Assembly: GCF_904846615.1 (NCBI RefSeq)
Contig: NZ_CAJHBK010000001.1
Span: 744,001-808,000 of the forward strand
DNA length: 64,000 nt
Direction of reading: 5' to 3'
From: Psychrobacter sp. JCM 18902
GTDB taxonomy: Bacteria > Pseudomonadota > Gammaproteobacteria > Pseudomonadales > Moraxellaceae
The notes under the pieces are model-generated. The model saw only the letters and a list, made by a program, of their open reading frames with translations. It did no database searches and was not told the origin of the DNA. The first letter of the stretch is position 1; each line of letters begins with the position of its first letter. The position numbers were made by a program, and so were the translations under genes. Positions 26,239 to 54,680 of the stretch are shown here, piece after piece.

Positions 26239-26398
26239 CTTTGTTGAGTCATCGTCTGATTTTTTCTACCGTTTTTAAATATAAAGGTATTCAGACTTTG
26301 ACGGCGATAGAGAGACCGTAACAATCGTGTGATTACCAAAGCGTATTAATATCAGTATTTATTTTCTATTATCTGATATGCTATCATCTTTAAGTCAT

Positions 26399-26611
26399 TA
26401 TCGTGGGTTTAACAGTTTTGTCATTGCCAGCCATTATCGTTATAAATGGTGGCGTACAAACCTTGCAACTTCCAGCACGATATAAAACAATTCTGGTAAA
26501 GCGCATGAGCCTGTACTCCGACATCCTCATTTGTGCCTGATTTTATTTGCCTATTTGGGCGTATTTCAACCTTTTTCGTCGGAGTTACAGGAGTCTAAGG
26601 TGTTCAATATC
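26399..26611 (+). ncRNA. Candidate structured cis-regulatory leader, copy 1
   Basis: This untranslated leader precedes the gene at 26612 and matches the leader at 51624. Elements seen by eye: outer helix TATCGTG (26399-26405) with CACGATA (26476-26482). Inside it is a hairpin (GTTTTGT with ACAAAC, GCCAGCCATT with AATGGTGGC) whose sequence differs from copy 2 but still pairs. Next comes a near-invariant block including GCAACTTCCAGCACGATAT and CTGGTAAAGCGCATGAGC. Last is a long stem CCTGTACTCCGAC (26510-26522) with GTCGGAGTTACAGG (26578-26591) that covers an AGGAG. This looks like a regulated RNA leader; no known class was recognised. Confidence 0.65.
26505..26540 (+). CDS. Candidate 11-codon leader peptide (upstream ORF), copy 1
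   Basis: An ATG in the conserved leader opens 11 codons (MSLYSD, then five residues ending in Ala) and stops at TGA. The same start, length and stop exist at 51717-51752, with the first six residues identical and residues 7-10 different. A weak GGTAAAG precedes it. The ORF overlaps the 5' half of the long stem, so its translation could open or close that stem. It may be fortuitous, because the conserved part is also the base-paired part. Confidence 0.4.
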   Translation: MSLYSDILICA

Positions 26612-27067
26612 ATGAGCCACATTGCTAACCAATCCAAATATACCCGTCATTATCATCCACGCCATCTTCTTGCCCAGTATGCGATCAATCAGATAGCGAC
26701 ACTTGAGCTGCGTTCGCAAGATATTGTCAAAGCCATGGGCTATCCTATCAAGCATACCATCCCTGCTTGTGAGCGCCTACGTCATGTATTATCGAATAAA
26801 TACCTTGGGCTTGATGGCAGCTATATGGATAAATATTTTACCGCTGAAGAATTTTTAGCCGTGCTATTTTCTGTGCTGGATATCCCTCATACGCCGTTTG
26901 CAGAAGACATTGCCCAGATCAAAGATGCTGCTGTGCACGCTCAGCATGATAATAAAAATTCATCCTATGGCAGTGTAAGCAATGCCTATCAACAGATGAG
27001 TGAACAAGATTATGAAATGGTTGATAGATTAGAAAAATATAAGCTAAAAAAATCTAAGGAATGTTAA
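26612..27067 (+). CDS. Unknown protein, short paralogue of the protein at 51805
   Basis: The protein has about 151 aa with no family recognised. It aligns with the product at 51805-52446 over the whole N-terminal 100 residues. Shared blocks are MSHI, a basic H-Y-x-PRHxLA segment, RSQDIV-AMGYP-K, RLRHVLS, a TA-EFL segment and FAEDIAQI. The RSQDIVKAMGYP region has the spacing of a helix-turn-helix. About 60-70 residues found in the paralogue before its C-terminal MVD segment are missing here, so it could be a shortened copy. The open frame begins earlier at a TTG (26531), but the ATG at 26612 matches the paralogue's MSHI start and follows AAGGTG at 26597-26602. A terminator follows. Confidence 0.7.
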   Translation: MSHIANQSKYTRHYHPRHLLAQYAINQIATLELRSQDIVKAMGYPIKHTIPACERLRHVLSNKYLGLDGSYMDKYFTAEEFLAVLFSVLDIPHTPFAEDIAQIKDAAVHAQHDNKNSSYGSVSNAYQQMSEQDYEMVDRLEKYKLKKSKEC

Positions 27068-50066: not shown

Positions 50067-50957
50067 ATGACAAACACAACTAACACTTTTGAGCAAAAAC
50101 GTATCGATAATTTAAATTGGTCAAGTGGATCAAAACTGCCTAAATCCATTCAAGATAAGGTACAAACTAAACCAAAGATACCGTTGTTTTATCTGCATAA
50201 CGAGTCTATCAATAACTATGAAGATGATATCTACTTTGTGAATAATAGCGATGAGACATTGAGCTTTGTTGCTCCCTATGAGCTGATGAAGAGAGATTCA
50301 GATTGCTCTGAGGTAGTGGTTGCTGCCGAACCAAGTGAACGTGACATATCCCTCACTTATACTGATGTATTGCCCAAGCAAGGCGTGAGAATTGATCGTC
50401 AACATATCATCTATGATAGTGATTATCTCAATCAGATTATTGTGTATACCATGAGTCGTGCCAGCAAGGAGATGTGGGGAATATGGCGTTTGAATGTGTG
50501 CGAAAAAGGCATGTTTTCGTCATCCTATCCATTGCTCTGGGAGGAGGGTACTAAGCCCTCACACGTTGTAAGTGCCGATAAACTGAATGATCCCAAAGAT
50601 CGTCCTATTTTACCTTGTGTATTGCCCATACGTCAGCAGTTATACCAAGAGTGGGTCAATCATTATGATAAGGCGAGTGTAAGCTTGATGAGGTCTATCA
50701 CCGATATGATCTATCGTTATGACTTTGGTATTGTGGGATGTTATTACAATGATACTTGGGATGAGTACAGCAGTGAGGCGGAGCAGATTGCTAATCGTCT
50801 GATTCAAGGTGATGCCGATAGCGCAGATGAGGTTCTCGCGATGATGACTAGGGTCTATGACGTGTCATTTGGTGCTGGATATACGAGGATTCCTATGGAT
50901 GTCGCTGAGCGCATTTATGGCCTATGGTTGAAGCATAAAAGTAATGCTAATAAATAA
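50067..50957 (+). CDS. Unknown protein, possible DUF1871-like C-terminus
   Basis: This 296-aa soluble protein has no signal or membrane segment. I do not recognise the N-terminal 200 residues. The C-terminal 90 residues (YNDTWDEYSSEAEQIANRL, followed by a V-LAMMTRVYDVSFG helix and AERIYGLWLKH) recall the DUF1871/immunity-like pattern of a D-EY-x-EA-x-x-I helix; this is weak. AAAATAAGGATAA precedes the ATG. The alpha/beta hydrolase gene follows after 24 bp, so the two are co-transcribed. Confidence 0.55.
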   Translation: MTNTTNTFEQKRIDNLNWSSGSKLPKSIQDKVQTKPKIPLFYLHNESINNYEDDIYFVNNSDETLSFVAPYELMKRDSDCSEVVVAAEPSERDISLTYTDVLPKQGVRIDRQHIIYDSDYLNQIIVYTMSRASKEMWGIWRLNVCEKGMFSSSYPLLWEEGTKPSHVVSADKLNDPKDRPILPCVLPIRQQLYQEWVNHYDKASVSLMRSITDMIYRYDFGIVGCYYNDTWDEYSSEAEQIANRLIQGDADSADEVLAMMTRVYDVSFGAGYTRIPMDVAERIYGLWLKHKSNANK

Positions 50958-50981: not shown

Positions 50982-51566
50982 ATGATGTTTCCTATTGAAA
51001 ATAATGACACGTTTTTACTGTTCTCTCACGGTCTTGATTCGAGTAATGAGACCAGTAAATATACTTGTATTAGCCGTGAGCCCAAAACCTGCCAAACCGT
51101 CAATTATCGAGATAATTTCAACGAGATTTTCGATATTTATGAGGCGTTAATTTTAGAAAAAATGAAGCAATATCCGCGAGTCGTCTTGGCAGGGCATTCA
51201 CTTGGTGGCTGGTTTGCCAATTATTTCGCCCACAAATACAATTTGCGTGCGCTATTAATAGCGCCTTGCATTTATCCCAGTGAGGTTTTAGCAGACCGCA
51301 TACCAAAAGTGGCTGATATGAAACTGTCATTTCCGACCTCGAATACTGAGATGGTAGTAGTCATGGTTGAGGTTGATGATGAATGCTTAGATGTAGCCGT
51401 CGCCAGACGCACGTTGGTCAACTTACCTGAGAGCTGGGAAGTGGAGTATTTTGAGCGTGGTCATCACCGTATCGCCCGTAGCGAAGACATTTGGTATCAC
51501 TTGGTTCATCTGTGCGAAGACCCCATTATCTGGATGGATGACGCGACATATCATGGTGAATATTAA
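50982..51566 (+). CDS. YqiA/RBBP9-like alpha/beta hydrolase
   Basis: The protein has 194 aa. The nucleophile elbow is AGHSLGGW with S73; LLFSHGLDSS supplies the oxyanion region, and RGHHRIARSED near residue 165 carries the likely catalytic His. The size and layout fit YqiA/RBBP9-type small esterases. A Shine-Dalgarno AAGGAGAGGA is strong. It is 24 bp after the unknown gene and 58 bp before the structured leader at 51624. The substrate is unknown. Confidence 0.78.
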   Translation: MMFPIENNDTFLLFSHGLDSSNETSKYTCISREPKTCQTVNYRDNFNEIFDIYEALILEKMKQYPRVVLAGHSLGGWFANYFAHKYNLRALLIAPCIYPSEVLADRIPKVADMKLSFPTSNTEMVVVMVEVDDECLDVAVARRTLVNLPESWEVEYFERGHHRIARSEDIWYHLVHLCEDPIIWMDDATYHGEY

Positions 51567-51623
51567 ATACCATCAGCCTTGAAGTAAGGCCTTATTAATT
51601 ACTATTATAAAGAACTAAAAAAC

Positions 51624-51804
51624 TATCGTGGGTTTAACGGTTTGCCAAGTTTTTCAAAAATCACTTAGCAAACATTGCAACTTCCAGCACGATATAAAAC
51701 CACTCTGGTAAAGCGCATGAGCCTGTACTCCGACAAGGCTATCCATGCCTGATTTGACTTGCCTATTTGGGCTTATTCTTATTGTCGGAGTTCAGGAGTC
51801 ACTG
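51624..51804 (+). ncRNA. Candidate structured cis-regulatory leader, copy 2
   Basis: This is homologous to 26399-26611. Outer helix TATCGTG (51624-51630) pairs with CACGATA (51688-51694). The inner hairpin has GTTTGC (51640-51645) with GCAAAC (51668-51673) plus AAGT with ACTT; the sequence differs from copy 1 while pairing is kept. The long stem CCTGTACTCCGACA (51722-51735) pairs with TGTCGGAGTTCAGG (51783-51796) at 13 of 14 positions. Its 3' strand overlaps the AGGAG at 51794-51798, which lies six bases before the ATG at 51805, so folding would block translation. A small AGGC/GCCT hairpin lies inside the loop. Confidence 0.68.
51717..51752 (+). CDS. Candidate 11-codon leader peptide (upstream ORF), copy 2
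   Basis: ATG opens MSLYSD then five residues ending in Ala, with TGA at the same place as in copy 1. The middle codons differ, yet length and stop are kept. The stop overlaps an ATG at 51745 that is in frame with the main gene. A coupled start or ribosome-controlled switch is possible; the data are two sequences only. Confidence 0.4.
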   Translation: MSLYSDKAIHA

Positions 51805-52446
51805 ATGTCTCATATCAATAGCCAAAATCTCACGCCTTGCAAATATACTCATCGTTATACGCCGCGGCATCCTTTGGCAAAAGAGGCGGTTAGCCAAATA
51901 GAGAAATGTGAACGACGTTCGCAAGATATTGTCCAAGCCATGGGTTATCCGCCAAAACACATCATATCCGCCTGTAGTCGTCTGCGTCATGTATTGTCTA
52001 GCGACATACTAGGACTTAATGCGACAGATATTGATAGCTACTTTACTGCTCATGAATTCTTAAAAGCATTATTATCCGTGCTCGATATAAAGTACGACAC
52101 CTTTGCAGAGGATATTGCGCAAATCCAATATGACTTGGCGCATTATCCTTATCCGCTACCGCAATATCAATTGCGAGCGGTCATCGACTTTACATGGAGT
52201 GAGGGCGCTAACTGGATGTCGCGCGGCGTGGCTAGCAGTAAGGCTGTTGCGTATTTACCGCAAAATATTGCCAAAATGAATGCGGCAAAGCGTGAGTTGG
52301 TGATTCAACAATGTCTGGCTGCGCATTATGCAGAATATAACGGTCACTTGCCGTATAATGGCGTGATTAACGGTTATCAACTTATCATTGAACAGCGTCA
52401 TGAGATGGTTGATAGCATCGAGTATGATCTGCCGCAGTGTGAGTAG
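51805..52446 (+). CDS. Unknown protein, long paralogue of the protein at 26612
   Basis: The protein has about 213 aa, no known family recognised. The N-terminal 100 residues align with the protein at 26612: MSHI, YTPRHPLAKEAV, RSQDIVQAMGYPPKH, RLRHVLSSD, FTAHEFLKALLSVLDI, FAEDIAQIQ. The AMGYP region looks like a helix-turn-helix. The C-terminal half adds a Trp-rich segment (FTWSEGANWMSRG) and ends with NGYQLI-EQRHEMVDSI, which returns to similarity with the paralogue. The start was chosen from the AGGAG at 51794-51798 and from the shared MSHI; the open frame reaches back to 51745. Confidence 0.72.
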   Translation: MSHINSQNLTPCKYTHRYTPRHPLAKEAVSQIEKCERRSQDIVQAMGYPPKHIISACSRLRHVLSSDILGLNATDIDSYFTAHEFLKALLSVLDIKYDTFAEDIAQIQYDLAHYPYPLPQYQLRAVIDFTWSEGANWMSRGVASSKAVAYLPQNIAKMNAAKRELVIQQCLAAHYAEYNGHLPYNGVINGYQLIIEQRHEMVDSIEYDLPQCE

Positions 52447-52520
52447 GATGTGATACATCACTCATCAATTGGTAGCATTAACATTTAACACAGCATACCC
52501 AAATAAAAAGGCCGTCCCCA

Positions 52521-53384: not shown

Positions 53385-54119
53385 ATGCAACAAACACAGA
53401 ATTCTGTGGATCAAAGACAAGATGCTGTAGAACACAGACCCGTATTCATGCCGAGAACCAACAGTGACAATCTGGTAAAAACAGACATGGTTAGGTTTGA
53501 GCGGCATGTGGGGTTTGCCAGTCGCCAAAAGAAAAAATCAATCAATGATATGCATCAAGTCATTCGCAAAAAGTATGGCTTTAGTCATGTCCTTGAGCTA
53601 TCGAGCAAGTCTGGTAATAAATTGAGTTTTCCGCTGAGTCCATTAAGCTTGAAGCTAACAAATGAACAAGATGGGCAGCAGTACAGTGTCGAAAATGCCT
53701 TTCAAAGCAGTATGATTTTTGAGGATGGTGGCCCCTATACTGACTTGTTAAGTGCGCCGCCAAGACAAGCCAGAAAGGACGAGCGCTTAATGACCTCGGG
53801 TGAACTGATTGGCTATAATTATTTTGGCATGGAGTGGAGCGTAGAGCCATTGACCACATTTTATGATTGGCTCTATGTGAATGCCCTAAAGCAAAACCCG
53901 CATTTGCATGAAGAAGTTATGCAATATCAAGCCTTTACGGATCGTGAGTTTAATCCTAAAAAGTCTATCCATTGTGCGGCTTATGCACTGGCGATGTTTG
54001 TGGCGCTCAATAAACGCGAGTTGCTCGATAACATTGAAGACCCCGCAGTATTTTTTAATTTATATCATGAATTCAAAATAAGTAATACTGAGCAGCTTTT
54101 AGAAGCGGGTTGGGTTTGA
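53385..54119 (+). CDS. NADAR/DUF6977-like protein (DarT-associated antitoxin family)
   Basis: The protein has 244 aa. The layout matches, from memory, the DUF6977/NADAR proteins linked to DarT1 toxins. It has RPVFMPR at the start, a SRQKKKSINDMH segment, LELSSKSGNKLSFPLS, VENAFQSSMIFEDGGPYTDLL, the FYDWLYVNAL block, and FTDREFNPKKSIHCAAYALAMF at the end. NADAR proteins of this group remove ADP-ribose from DNA guanine and act as antitoxins. No DarT (DUF4433) gene is beside it, so it would be an orphan or paired with the unknown acidic protein upstream. The family assignment was not searched. Confidence 0.6.
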   Translation: MQQTQNSVDQRQDAVEHRPVFMPRTNSDNLVKTDMVRFERHVGFASRQKKKSINDMHQVIRKKYGFSHVLELSSKSGNKLSFPLSPLSLKLTNEQDGQQYSVENAFQSSMIFEDGGPYTDLLSAPPRQARKDERLMTSGELIGYNYFGMEWSVEPLTTFYDWLYVNALKQNPHLHEEVMQYQAFTDREFNPKKSIHCAAYALAMFVALNKRELLDNIEDPAVFFNLYHEFKISNTEQLLEAGWV

Positions 54120-54605: not shown

Positions 54606-54680
54606 TGGAGCGGGAAAAGAGATTCGAACTCTCGACCCCAACCTTGGCAAGGTTATGCTCTACCACTGAGCTATTCCCGC
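54606..54680 (-). tRNA. glyT: tRNA-Gly (anticodon GCC)
   Basis: Minus-strand cloverleaf: acceptor GCGGGAA with TTCCCGC, D-arm AGCTCAGTGGTAGAGC, anticodon arm ACCTTGCCAAGGT with GCC, T-arm AGAGTTCGAATCTCT, discriminator T and encoded CCA. Length including CCA is 75 nt. It is a single tRNA gene followed by its own terminator. Confidence 0.96.

Follow-up and report, generated by a model that had tools for sequence, protein, structure and literature searches.

A conserved, structured RNA leader precedes two paralogous helix-turn-helix (HTH) genes of Psychrobacter sp. JCM 18902 and, in other genomes of the genus, an unrelated leucine-rich-repeat gene. We analysed both copies within one stretch of 64,000 nucleotides (contig NZ_CAJHBK010000001.1, positions 744,001 to 808,000; hereafter the window) together with relatives from other genomes. 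This RNA is best read as an orphan riboswitch-like translational switch with a putative ligand and putative switching. In its specific form, i.e., a cis-acting switch at the level of translation with a sensing pseudoknot core, a hairpin P3 for the ON state, a helix P4 for the OFF state, and a ligand that sets the balance between them, we consider this model on balance probable.

An initial annotation of the window had described the same structured leader ahead of two paralogous genes (copy 2 at 51624-51804, copy 1 at 26399-26599), and the sequences bear this out. The outer helix closes with seven of seven base pairs in copy 2 and is found in copy 1 as well (Table 1), while the inner hairpin of copy 2 differs from copy 1 in its bases with the pairing preserved. 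GCAACTTCCAGCACGATAT and CTGGTAAAGCGCATGAGC are common to both copies, and 13 of 14 positions are paired in a stem of CTGTACTCCGACAA (51723-51736) with TTGTCGGAGTTCAG (51782-51795) whose 3' strand runs into AGGAG six bases 5' of the ATG at 51805. The genes behind the two leaders are paralogues whose products share 61% identity across 108 N-terminal residues. A conserved structured cis-acting leader able to cover the ribosome-binding site ahead of an uncharacterised family, as the annotation had proposed, is therefore supported. The stem, though, belongs to a larger system, since its 5' strand also lies inside an alternative hairpin, P3. With an additional pairing of CCAG with CTGG, the outer helix (S1) would become a pseudoknot. 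When folded alone, the leader of copy 2 reached -53.9 kcal/mol (z -3.4), with none of 200 dinucleotide shuffles as good, while copy 1 was weaker (z -1.8; 12 of 200 shuffles as good) and its minimum-energy fold lacked the outer helix. Single-sequence folding is weak evidence, and we therefore collected relatives and let the comparative evidence decide.

Table 1. Coordinates of leader elements and associated genes in the window (P, paired element; S, strand pair of the proposed pseudoknot; L, loop; SD, Shine-Dalgarno sequence).
Feature	Position	Strand	Basis
Copy 2: hairpin resembling a terminator (stem 51576-51590; T-rich tail), 3' of the upstream hydrolase gene	51576..51600	+	sequence
Copy 2: promoter-like TTGAAG-18-TATTAT, 16 nt 5' of the S1 strand ATCGTG	51579..51608	+	9/12 matches; shuffled region averages 0.9 such sites, weak alone
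Copy 2: S1 5' strand TATCGTG	51624..51630	+	sequence; six inner pairs nearly invariant, outermost U-A or C-G
Copy 2: start of L1, GGTTTAA, conserved	51631..51637	+	GGGTTTA invariant in 30-row alignment; A3, A4
Copy 2: P2, optional hairpin inside L1	51640..51673	+	inserts close end to end in relatives
Copy 2: S2 5' strand CCAG	51684..51687	+	paired in 97/97 leaders, 4 as G-U, otherwise invariant
Copy 2: S1 3' strand CACGATA	51688..51694	+	97-leader pair count
Copy 2: L3, A-rich loop TAAAACCACT between S1 and S2	51695..51704	+	A3, A4
Copy 2: S2 3' strand CTGG plus TAAA	51705..51712	+	CTGGTAAA invariant in A3 and A4; TTGG in 4/97 leaders
Copy 2: P3 5' strand (GCATG + AGCC)	51715..51723	+	P3 in minimum-energy folds
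Copy 2: P4 5' strand = anti-SD strand CCTGTACTCCGACAA, mostly within P3 loop	51722..51736	+	duplex and pair counts
Copy 2: P3 3' strand (GGCT + CATGC)	51737..51748	+	P3 in minimum-energy folds
Copy 2: P4 3' strand TTGTCGGAGTTCAGG	51782..51796	+	duplex and pair counts; compensatory changes at several pairs
Copy 2: SD AGGAG, partly within P4	51794..51798	+	sequence
Copy 2: gene for 213-aa protein, N-terminal lambda-repressor/XRE-like HTH and unassigned C-terminal alpha/beta domain	51805..52446	+	
Copy 1: -10 hexamer TATCAT with extended TG	26382..26387	+	upstream-sequence survey
Copy 1: S1 5' strand	26399..26405	+	sequence
Copy 1: S2 5' strand 26472-26475, S1 3' strand 26476-26482, then A-rich loop, S2 3' strand 26493-26496	26472..26496	+	sequence
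Copy 1: P3 hairpin (GCGCA TGAG / CTCA TGTGC), loop holding P4 5' strand 26510-26523	26501..26536	+	sequence, folding
Copy 1: P4 3' strand 26577-26591 and AGGAG 26589-26593	26577..26593	+	sequence, 97-leader pair count
Copy 1: gene (GTG start or ATG 26612), HTH domain, full C-terminal domain missing	26600..27067	+	sequence, protein comparison

Besides the two copies in the window's own genome, DNA similarity gave a leader match in 85 of 105 Psychrobacter genomes (one of them, G139, matching only the last 28 leader bases), and a covariance model found the leader in 86 of the 105. Scanned across 348 genomes of the family, the model was positive in 86, all of them Psychrobacter, i.e., in one of 16 genera and none of the other 15. 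Among 274 genomes of the class it recovered the window's own genome alone, and among 244 genomes of the order six Psychrobacter plus one match beyond the genus (G410; 28.8 bits, E 0.0024) that we rejected as chance, given that neither GGGTTTA nor CTGGTAAA occurs in the stretch read. All 79 stretches returned by an exact-pattern scan of GTDB contigs were likewise titled Psychrobacter. The annotation had recognised no named RNA class, and Rfam 15 agrees: at gathering score there was no leader match in the whole window, the loci of 10 relatives, or four leucine-rich-repeat loci, and at a relaxed threshold nothing appeared at E<=5 for 51560-51830. No description of this RNA was found among the titles and abstracts listed by literature searches of open-licence PubMed Central.

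Our collection comprised 101 distinct leaders, of which 100 could be anchored; L114, which is without CTGGTAAA, was dropped from later counts. From these, rows were hand-picked for diversity to build the alignments A3 (30 leaders) and A4 (19 leaders), both of which reveal a nearly invariant core composed of AUCGUGGGUUUA, an optional insert, ACUUCCAG, the 3' strand of S1 (S1b), nnAAAA, a few bases, and CUGGUAAAnCG. Within this core, S1 (AUCGUG/CACGAU, 6-7 bp) and S2 (CCAG/CUGG) are interleaved with 0 nt between S2a and S1b, and together they would give an H-type pseudoknot with an A-rich third loop. Since S2 and the greater part of S1 are constant, the support for this pseudoknot is complementarity and not covariation. 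All 77 distinct P2 inserts close an end-to-end hairpin compared with 26.1 expected from shuffles; P2 is missing from 10 short HTH-type leaders and from the leucine-rich-repeat leaders. The 30 diverse leaders share invariant nucleotides in core and loops, as would be expected of a binding site, and a conserved aptamer-like core positioned 5' of an expression platform is an arrangement characteristic of riboswitches.

The proposed expression platform consists of P3 and P4. P4 pairs CCU..ACUCCGACA with UGUCGGAGU..AGG, the final three bases of which belong to the SD. The best duplex of the two P4 regions was more than 2 sd better than mononucleotide shuffles in 67 of 82 distinct rows, and among the rows printed such duplexes, flanking pairs included, ranged from -12 to -34 kcal/mol. 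Among 98 leaders counted, 84 have their first ATG, GTG, or TTG at a distance of 8 or 9 nt from AGG. With the SD strand left out, P3 (at least three pairs) was present in the minimum-energy fold of all 48 distinct segments, its folding energy being modestly better than that of shuffles (median z -1.3; 19/48 below -1.5). Because their strands overlap, P3 and full P4 probably exclude each other, though a partial coexistence of the two, as an anti-SD loop docked onto the SD, is also possible.

An alternative explanation would be a static structure without sensing, in which P4 sets low constitutive translation or works as a stability element or RNA thermometer. In every leader type the SD is covered by P4, one conserved stem would suffice for this purpose, and Psychrobacter is cold-adapted. 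However, this explanation leaves the invariant upstream core unexplained, and duplexes as stable as those of P4 are ill-suited to melting at growth temperature, so that we judge it quite unlikely. Control by a leader peptide is another option, in which a ribosome on a short upstream ORF (MSLYSD...) starting from a conserved ATG would melt P4 and expose the SD. An ATG indeed lies just 3' of S2 in 82 of 100 leaders, 74 of which have an ORF of 11-13 codons that overlaps the P4 5' strand. However, this ATG is absent from the other 18 and from the leucine-rich-repeat leaders, and the ORF runs to 17-36 codons in 8 more through a frameshift or lost stop. P4 was nonetheless scored in all of these 26 leaders except L115, L139, and L147, and the coding similarity is accounted for by pairing constraints. 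Since 26 of 100 leaders either lack the ORF or have it in altered form, we have rejected upstream-ORF control, which seems very improbable.

Pairing was counted in 97 leaders, i.e., after removal of L139 and L115 (no recognised P4 3' strand) and L147 (pattern failed). Paired cells amounted to 659/679 for S1, 388/388 for S2, and 1126/1164 for the 12 pairs of P4, where the cell totals, like the tree-aware null described below, omit P4i_9, the innermost pair, which is 42% paired. Pairing was preserved through changes on both sides at the outermost pair of S1 (U-A/C-G, 12 rows) and, within P4, at the fourth outer pair (G-C/G-U/U-A/A-U, 12 rows), inner pair 5 (C-G/U-A, 9 rows), and inner pair 7 (A-U/U-A/G-C, 3 rows), with two further single rows. 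Against the tree-aware null, P4 had 26 such rows with 7.2 expected (reached in 12/500) and S1 had 12 with 1.2 expected (reached in 17/500). The paired cells of P4 also exceeded this null (1126 vs 809; 0/500), a result that is too generous because ambiguous root states lower the null mean for some pairs and the null is crude, and the paired cells of S1 did not exceed it (290/500 as high).

In the 30-row alignment, S1, S2, and P3 together were 95.3% paired with 7 cells changed on both sides, and 0/500 shuffles were as high for either measure. Slid structures paired 24-43% of cells compared with 95% in the true register, and the number of further pair types was not above shuffles (500/500 as high). 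P3 showed one cell changed on both sides in these rows, and its sixth pair was unpaired in 13/30. The signal for S1 and S2 in the 19 rows of A4 was weaker (34/500 shuffles as high for paired cells, 8/500 for both-side changes). The covariation that had been proposed as a check on the leader thus came out in part: compensatory changes are present and exceed two nulls, but an R-scape-like all-pairs test on 86 main-type leaders (leaving out the 10 short leaders and L139, L115, L135, and L131) returned no significant pair, which counts against a strong covariation claim. Comparison of the sequences supports the invariant core, P2, the potential for P3, and a pairing constraint on P4.

These data also bear on the idea that the element is a DNA-level repeat, e.g., an operator or the end of a mobile element, and no RNA at all. 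Its very high conservation and its duplication along with the gene would suit such a repeat, and the HTH product could bind DNA. However, P4 shows compensatory changes, the variable-length inserts always close into hairpins, the position of the element is fixed 3' of a promoter-like site and 5' of an SD, and plasmid, phage, and viral collections contained no leader match. We regard this idea as barely credible.

Between the leader of copy 2 and the hydrolase gene upstream of it lies a terminator-like site (Table 1). A -10-like hexamer lies 8-22 nt 5' of ATCGTG in 72 of 86 distinct upstream sequences, compared with 11/86 after shuffling, and in 44 of those 72 it is exactly 13 nt away; most of the printed examples read TATCAT and carry an extended TG. 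TTGACA stands upstream of all 15 intact leucine-rich-repeat leaders and is followed by TATGAT in 11. Given this conserved promoter position, the RNA probably starts close to S1. The promoter region of copy 1 also contains an inverted repeat, TATCAG...CTGATA, over its -35 stretch (26350-26378) that is visible in several relatives and might be an operator for the HTH protein. Terminator-like sites were sought inside both leaders of the window and none was found; we therefore rejected terminator-based attenuation, and control at the level of translation is the natural reading.

We therefore propose the following course of events, in which we infer that S1 and S2 form a pseudoknot, in what order the RNA folds, in which direction control works, and that a ligand exists and of what kind it is. 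The transcript would start near S1, as suggested by the promoter, and S1 and S2 would fold into a compact pseudoknot whose third loop is A-rich, and this core would serve as the sensing domain. P3, directly 3' of this core, would form first during transcription and hold the anti-SD strand in its loop. Once the 3' strand has arrived, refolding into the longer and more stable P4 would cover the SD and turn translation OFF; alternatively, P3 would be kept and the SD would stay free, i.e., ON. A diffusible ligand bound to the core would stabilise core and P3 and thereby set the balance between the two states. This ligand would most likely be a small molecule or otherwise a trans-acting protein other than the downstream product.

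The downstream product as a regulator of its own leader is an alternative. Its N-terminal domain has an HTH fold of the lambda-repressor/XRE-like type, and an ORF of the family starts at most 350 nt from the leader in 86 of 87 pattern-positive leaders, the remaining one (L170) lying ~200 bases from the end of the available stretch. Under autogenous control, this protein would bind the core of its own leader with the N-terminal domain, let P4 form, and thus hold its own level low. The consistent position of the family behind the leader and the nucleic-acid-binding fold favour this scenario, as do the seven leaders followed by genes of 117-130 aa for the N-terminal domain only (L110, L120, L129, L131, L133, L135, L136), which would make leader and N-domain the minimal unit. 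On the other side, the protein has diverged further than the leader core, with near-identical cores ahead of proteins that fall to ~30% identity, and a core scan around two homologues from outside the genus (L148, L149) found the leader absent.

Database searches with the HTH protein gave sub-threshold matches only in Pfam, NCBIfam, PADLOC, and PHROGs, a single match by sequence in the PDB (E 1.7), and nothing at E<=0.001 with Foldseek against the PDB and viral models. Beyond Psychrobacter, named members of the family come from Marinobacter, Marinobacterium, and one Vibrio. Judged by eye, the extra-genus gene appears to adjoin a metallophosphoesterase-like gene at L149 (G095), L236, and L238 (G416, G078), and no leader was seen in the stretches read around these three loci. 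Within the genus, the HTH genes at L134, L121, L135, L139, and L114 are interrupted, truncated, or missing (stop codons or no ORF), so in some species the leader can still be recognised beside a decaying gene.

The expectation that the leader would be tied to one protein family is outdated. The covariance model added 15 good copies that had been missed by the DNA search, plus two degenerate ones (L260 and G106:740053), and in 14 of the 16 loci read the same type of SD switch closes the leader and a start codon comes next; L247 (broken after the SD) and L260 depart from this. These copies do not precede HTH genes. At L248 the leader lies directly 5' of a gene for a leucine-rich-repeat protein (Pfam LRR_14, E 1e-31; no result with PADLOC). 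By coordinates, all 13 close orthologues of this protein (>=218 bits) in the 105 genomes are encoded just downstream of a leader, while weaker matches in the same list are not. Between leader and leucine-rich-repeat gene, a short ORF of ~70 codons is seen in 12 of 15 loci (L249-L259, L261); at L251 the short ORF is present with no leucine-rich-repeat gene after it. The short ORF and the short-leader HTH genes share their opening residues (MT-SSQ), and the leader and first codons were therefore probably transferred together to a new gene. An HTH-type leader seems to be the origin of the leucine-rich-repeat leaders, perhaps through a single transfer.

Two candidates were rejected along the way. 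The second match in G106 (740053) is a degenerate copy with unpaired S2 strands, and no leucine-rich-repeat remnant was found 3' of it. L260 seemed to offer an alpha/beta hydrolase as third target, but a C-terminal remnant of an HTH gene (54 aa, 30% identity, E 2e-5) intervenes between leader and hydrolase and makes this a decayed HTH locus.

The presence of the leader before an unrelated gene argues against pure self-regulation, above all in G122, where leader and leucine-rich-repeat gene are present and an HTH homologue was not found, though such an empty answer alone proves little. G012 similarly has a leader with neither an HTH homologue nor a close leucine-rich-repeat orthologue found. 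Binding by the HTH protein itself is thus possible for the HTH genes but leaves the leucine-rich-repeat case of G122 unexplained unless an undetected relative acts there, and autogenous control as a whole appears unlikely to us. The association with two unrelated gene families, HTH and leucine-rich-repeat, instead supports a riboswitch without strictly defining one. A bolder version of the riboswitch-like switch may be entertained tentatively, with the doubts slightly prevailing: a new, Psychrobacter-confined riboswitch class with an H-type pseudoknot aptamer stacked on an anti-SD-loop hairpin would sense a small molecule and control a leucine-rich-repeat protein as well as an XRE-like regulator. 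Leader and first codons would, as one module, have moved onto a new gene at least once. Two gene families only, neither of them metabolic, in one genus would be unusual for a metabolite riboswitch.

Upstream of copy 2 lie genes for a 296-aa protein (50067-50957) and a UPF0227-like alpha/beta hydrolase (50982-51566), whose clusters are found near 40 and 41 of 87 leader loci, respectively, and which may share a functional neighbourhood with the leader given this frequent co-occurrence. Two genes downstream of the HTH gene, 53385-54119 encodes a DarT1-associated NADAR antitoxin (Pfam E 2e-84); members of its cluster are near 18 of 87 leader loci and also in L251. Some 0.5 kb beyond the NADAR gene, a tRNA gene on the reverse strand (54609-54680), which is the sole Rfam match in the window, might mark the edge of a variable region.

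In type III toxin-antitoxin systems, a pseudoknotted RNA neutralises an adjacent toxin, and the leader could be such an RNA partner of the protein encoded next to it. A small accessory gene immediately preceded by a pseudoknot-like RNA, with a DarT1-type NADAR antitoxin gene nearby, would match this picture. However, 51400-52500 contains no tandem repeat, the protein matched no toxin family and is of the HTH fold, no terminator-like site separates the RNA from the gene, and the RNA also occurs 5' of the leucine-rich-repeat gene. Such a system is highly improbable here.

If the riboswitch-like reading is true, an undescribed structured regulatory RNA is present in about four fifths (86/105) of the sampled genomes of a common cold-adapted genus, and it would provide the first handle on an uncharacterised HTH protein family. 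A defined sensing core, an SD switch, and two unrelated targets would make it directly testable, and its move between gene types would hint at a signal common to a regulator and a leucine-rich-repeat protein.

Among known systems, autogenously regulated mRNA leaders exist for nucleic-acid-binding proteins. The Psychrobacter leader resembles them as a structured, SD-occluding element before a gene for a nucleic-acid-binding fold but, unlike them, also serves an unrelated gene in a genome where the protein homologue was not found. Class I preQ1 riboswitches, as outlined in PMC11625349, fold as H-type pseudoknots with A-rich strands in the minor groove and occlude the SD, and the proposed topology of S1a-L1-S2a-S1b-A-rich L3-S2b near the SD is similar. 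The complementarity of S2 fits this A-rich-loop pseudoknot in 97/97 leaders, yet S2 hardly varies. Unlike preQ1-I, the Psychrobacter leader is without Rfam match, has no recognised queuosine gene downstream, and keeps its SD in the separate helix P4 outside the pseudoknot. In preQ1-III, according to the same paper (PMC11625349), the SD pairs with an anti-SD carried by the loop of a hairpin that flanks the pseudoknot aptamer, and the anti-SD strand of our leader sits in the P3 loop in a comparable manner, though sequence and scaffold differ and there is again no Rfam match. Mutual exclusion of P3 and P4 is likelier here than docking because P4 comprises up to ~13 bp and is probably too long to coexist fully with P3. 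Finally, the leader is like the orphan riboswitch candidates from comparative genomics, for which PMC7266159 is a review, in that a conserved structured leader is known with gene association as the only clue to its ligand; it differs from these candidates in its restriction to one genus and to genes without assigned pathway. What is new here is that the same RNA precedes an unrelated leucine-rich-repeat gene.
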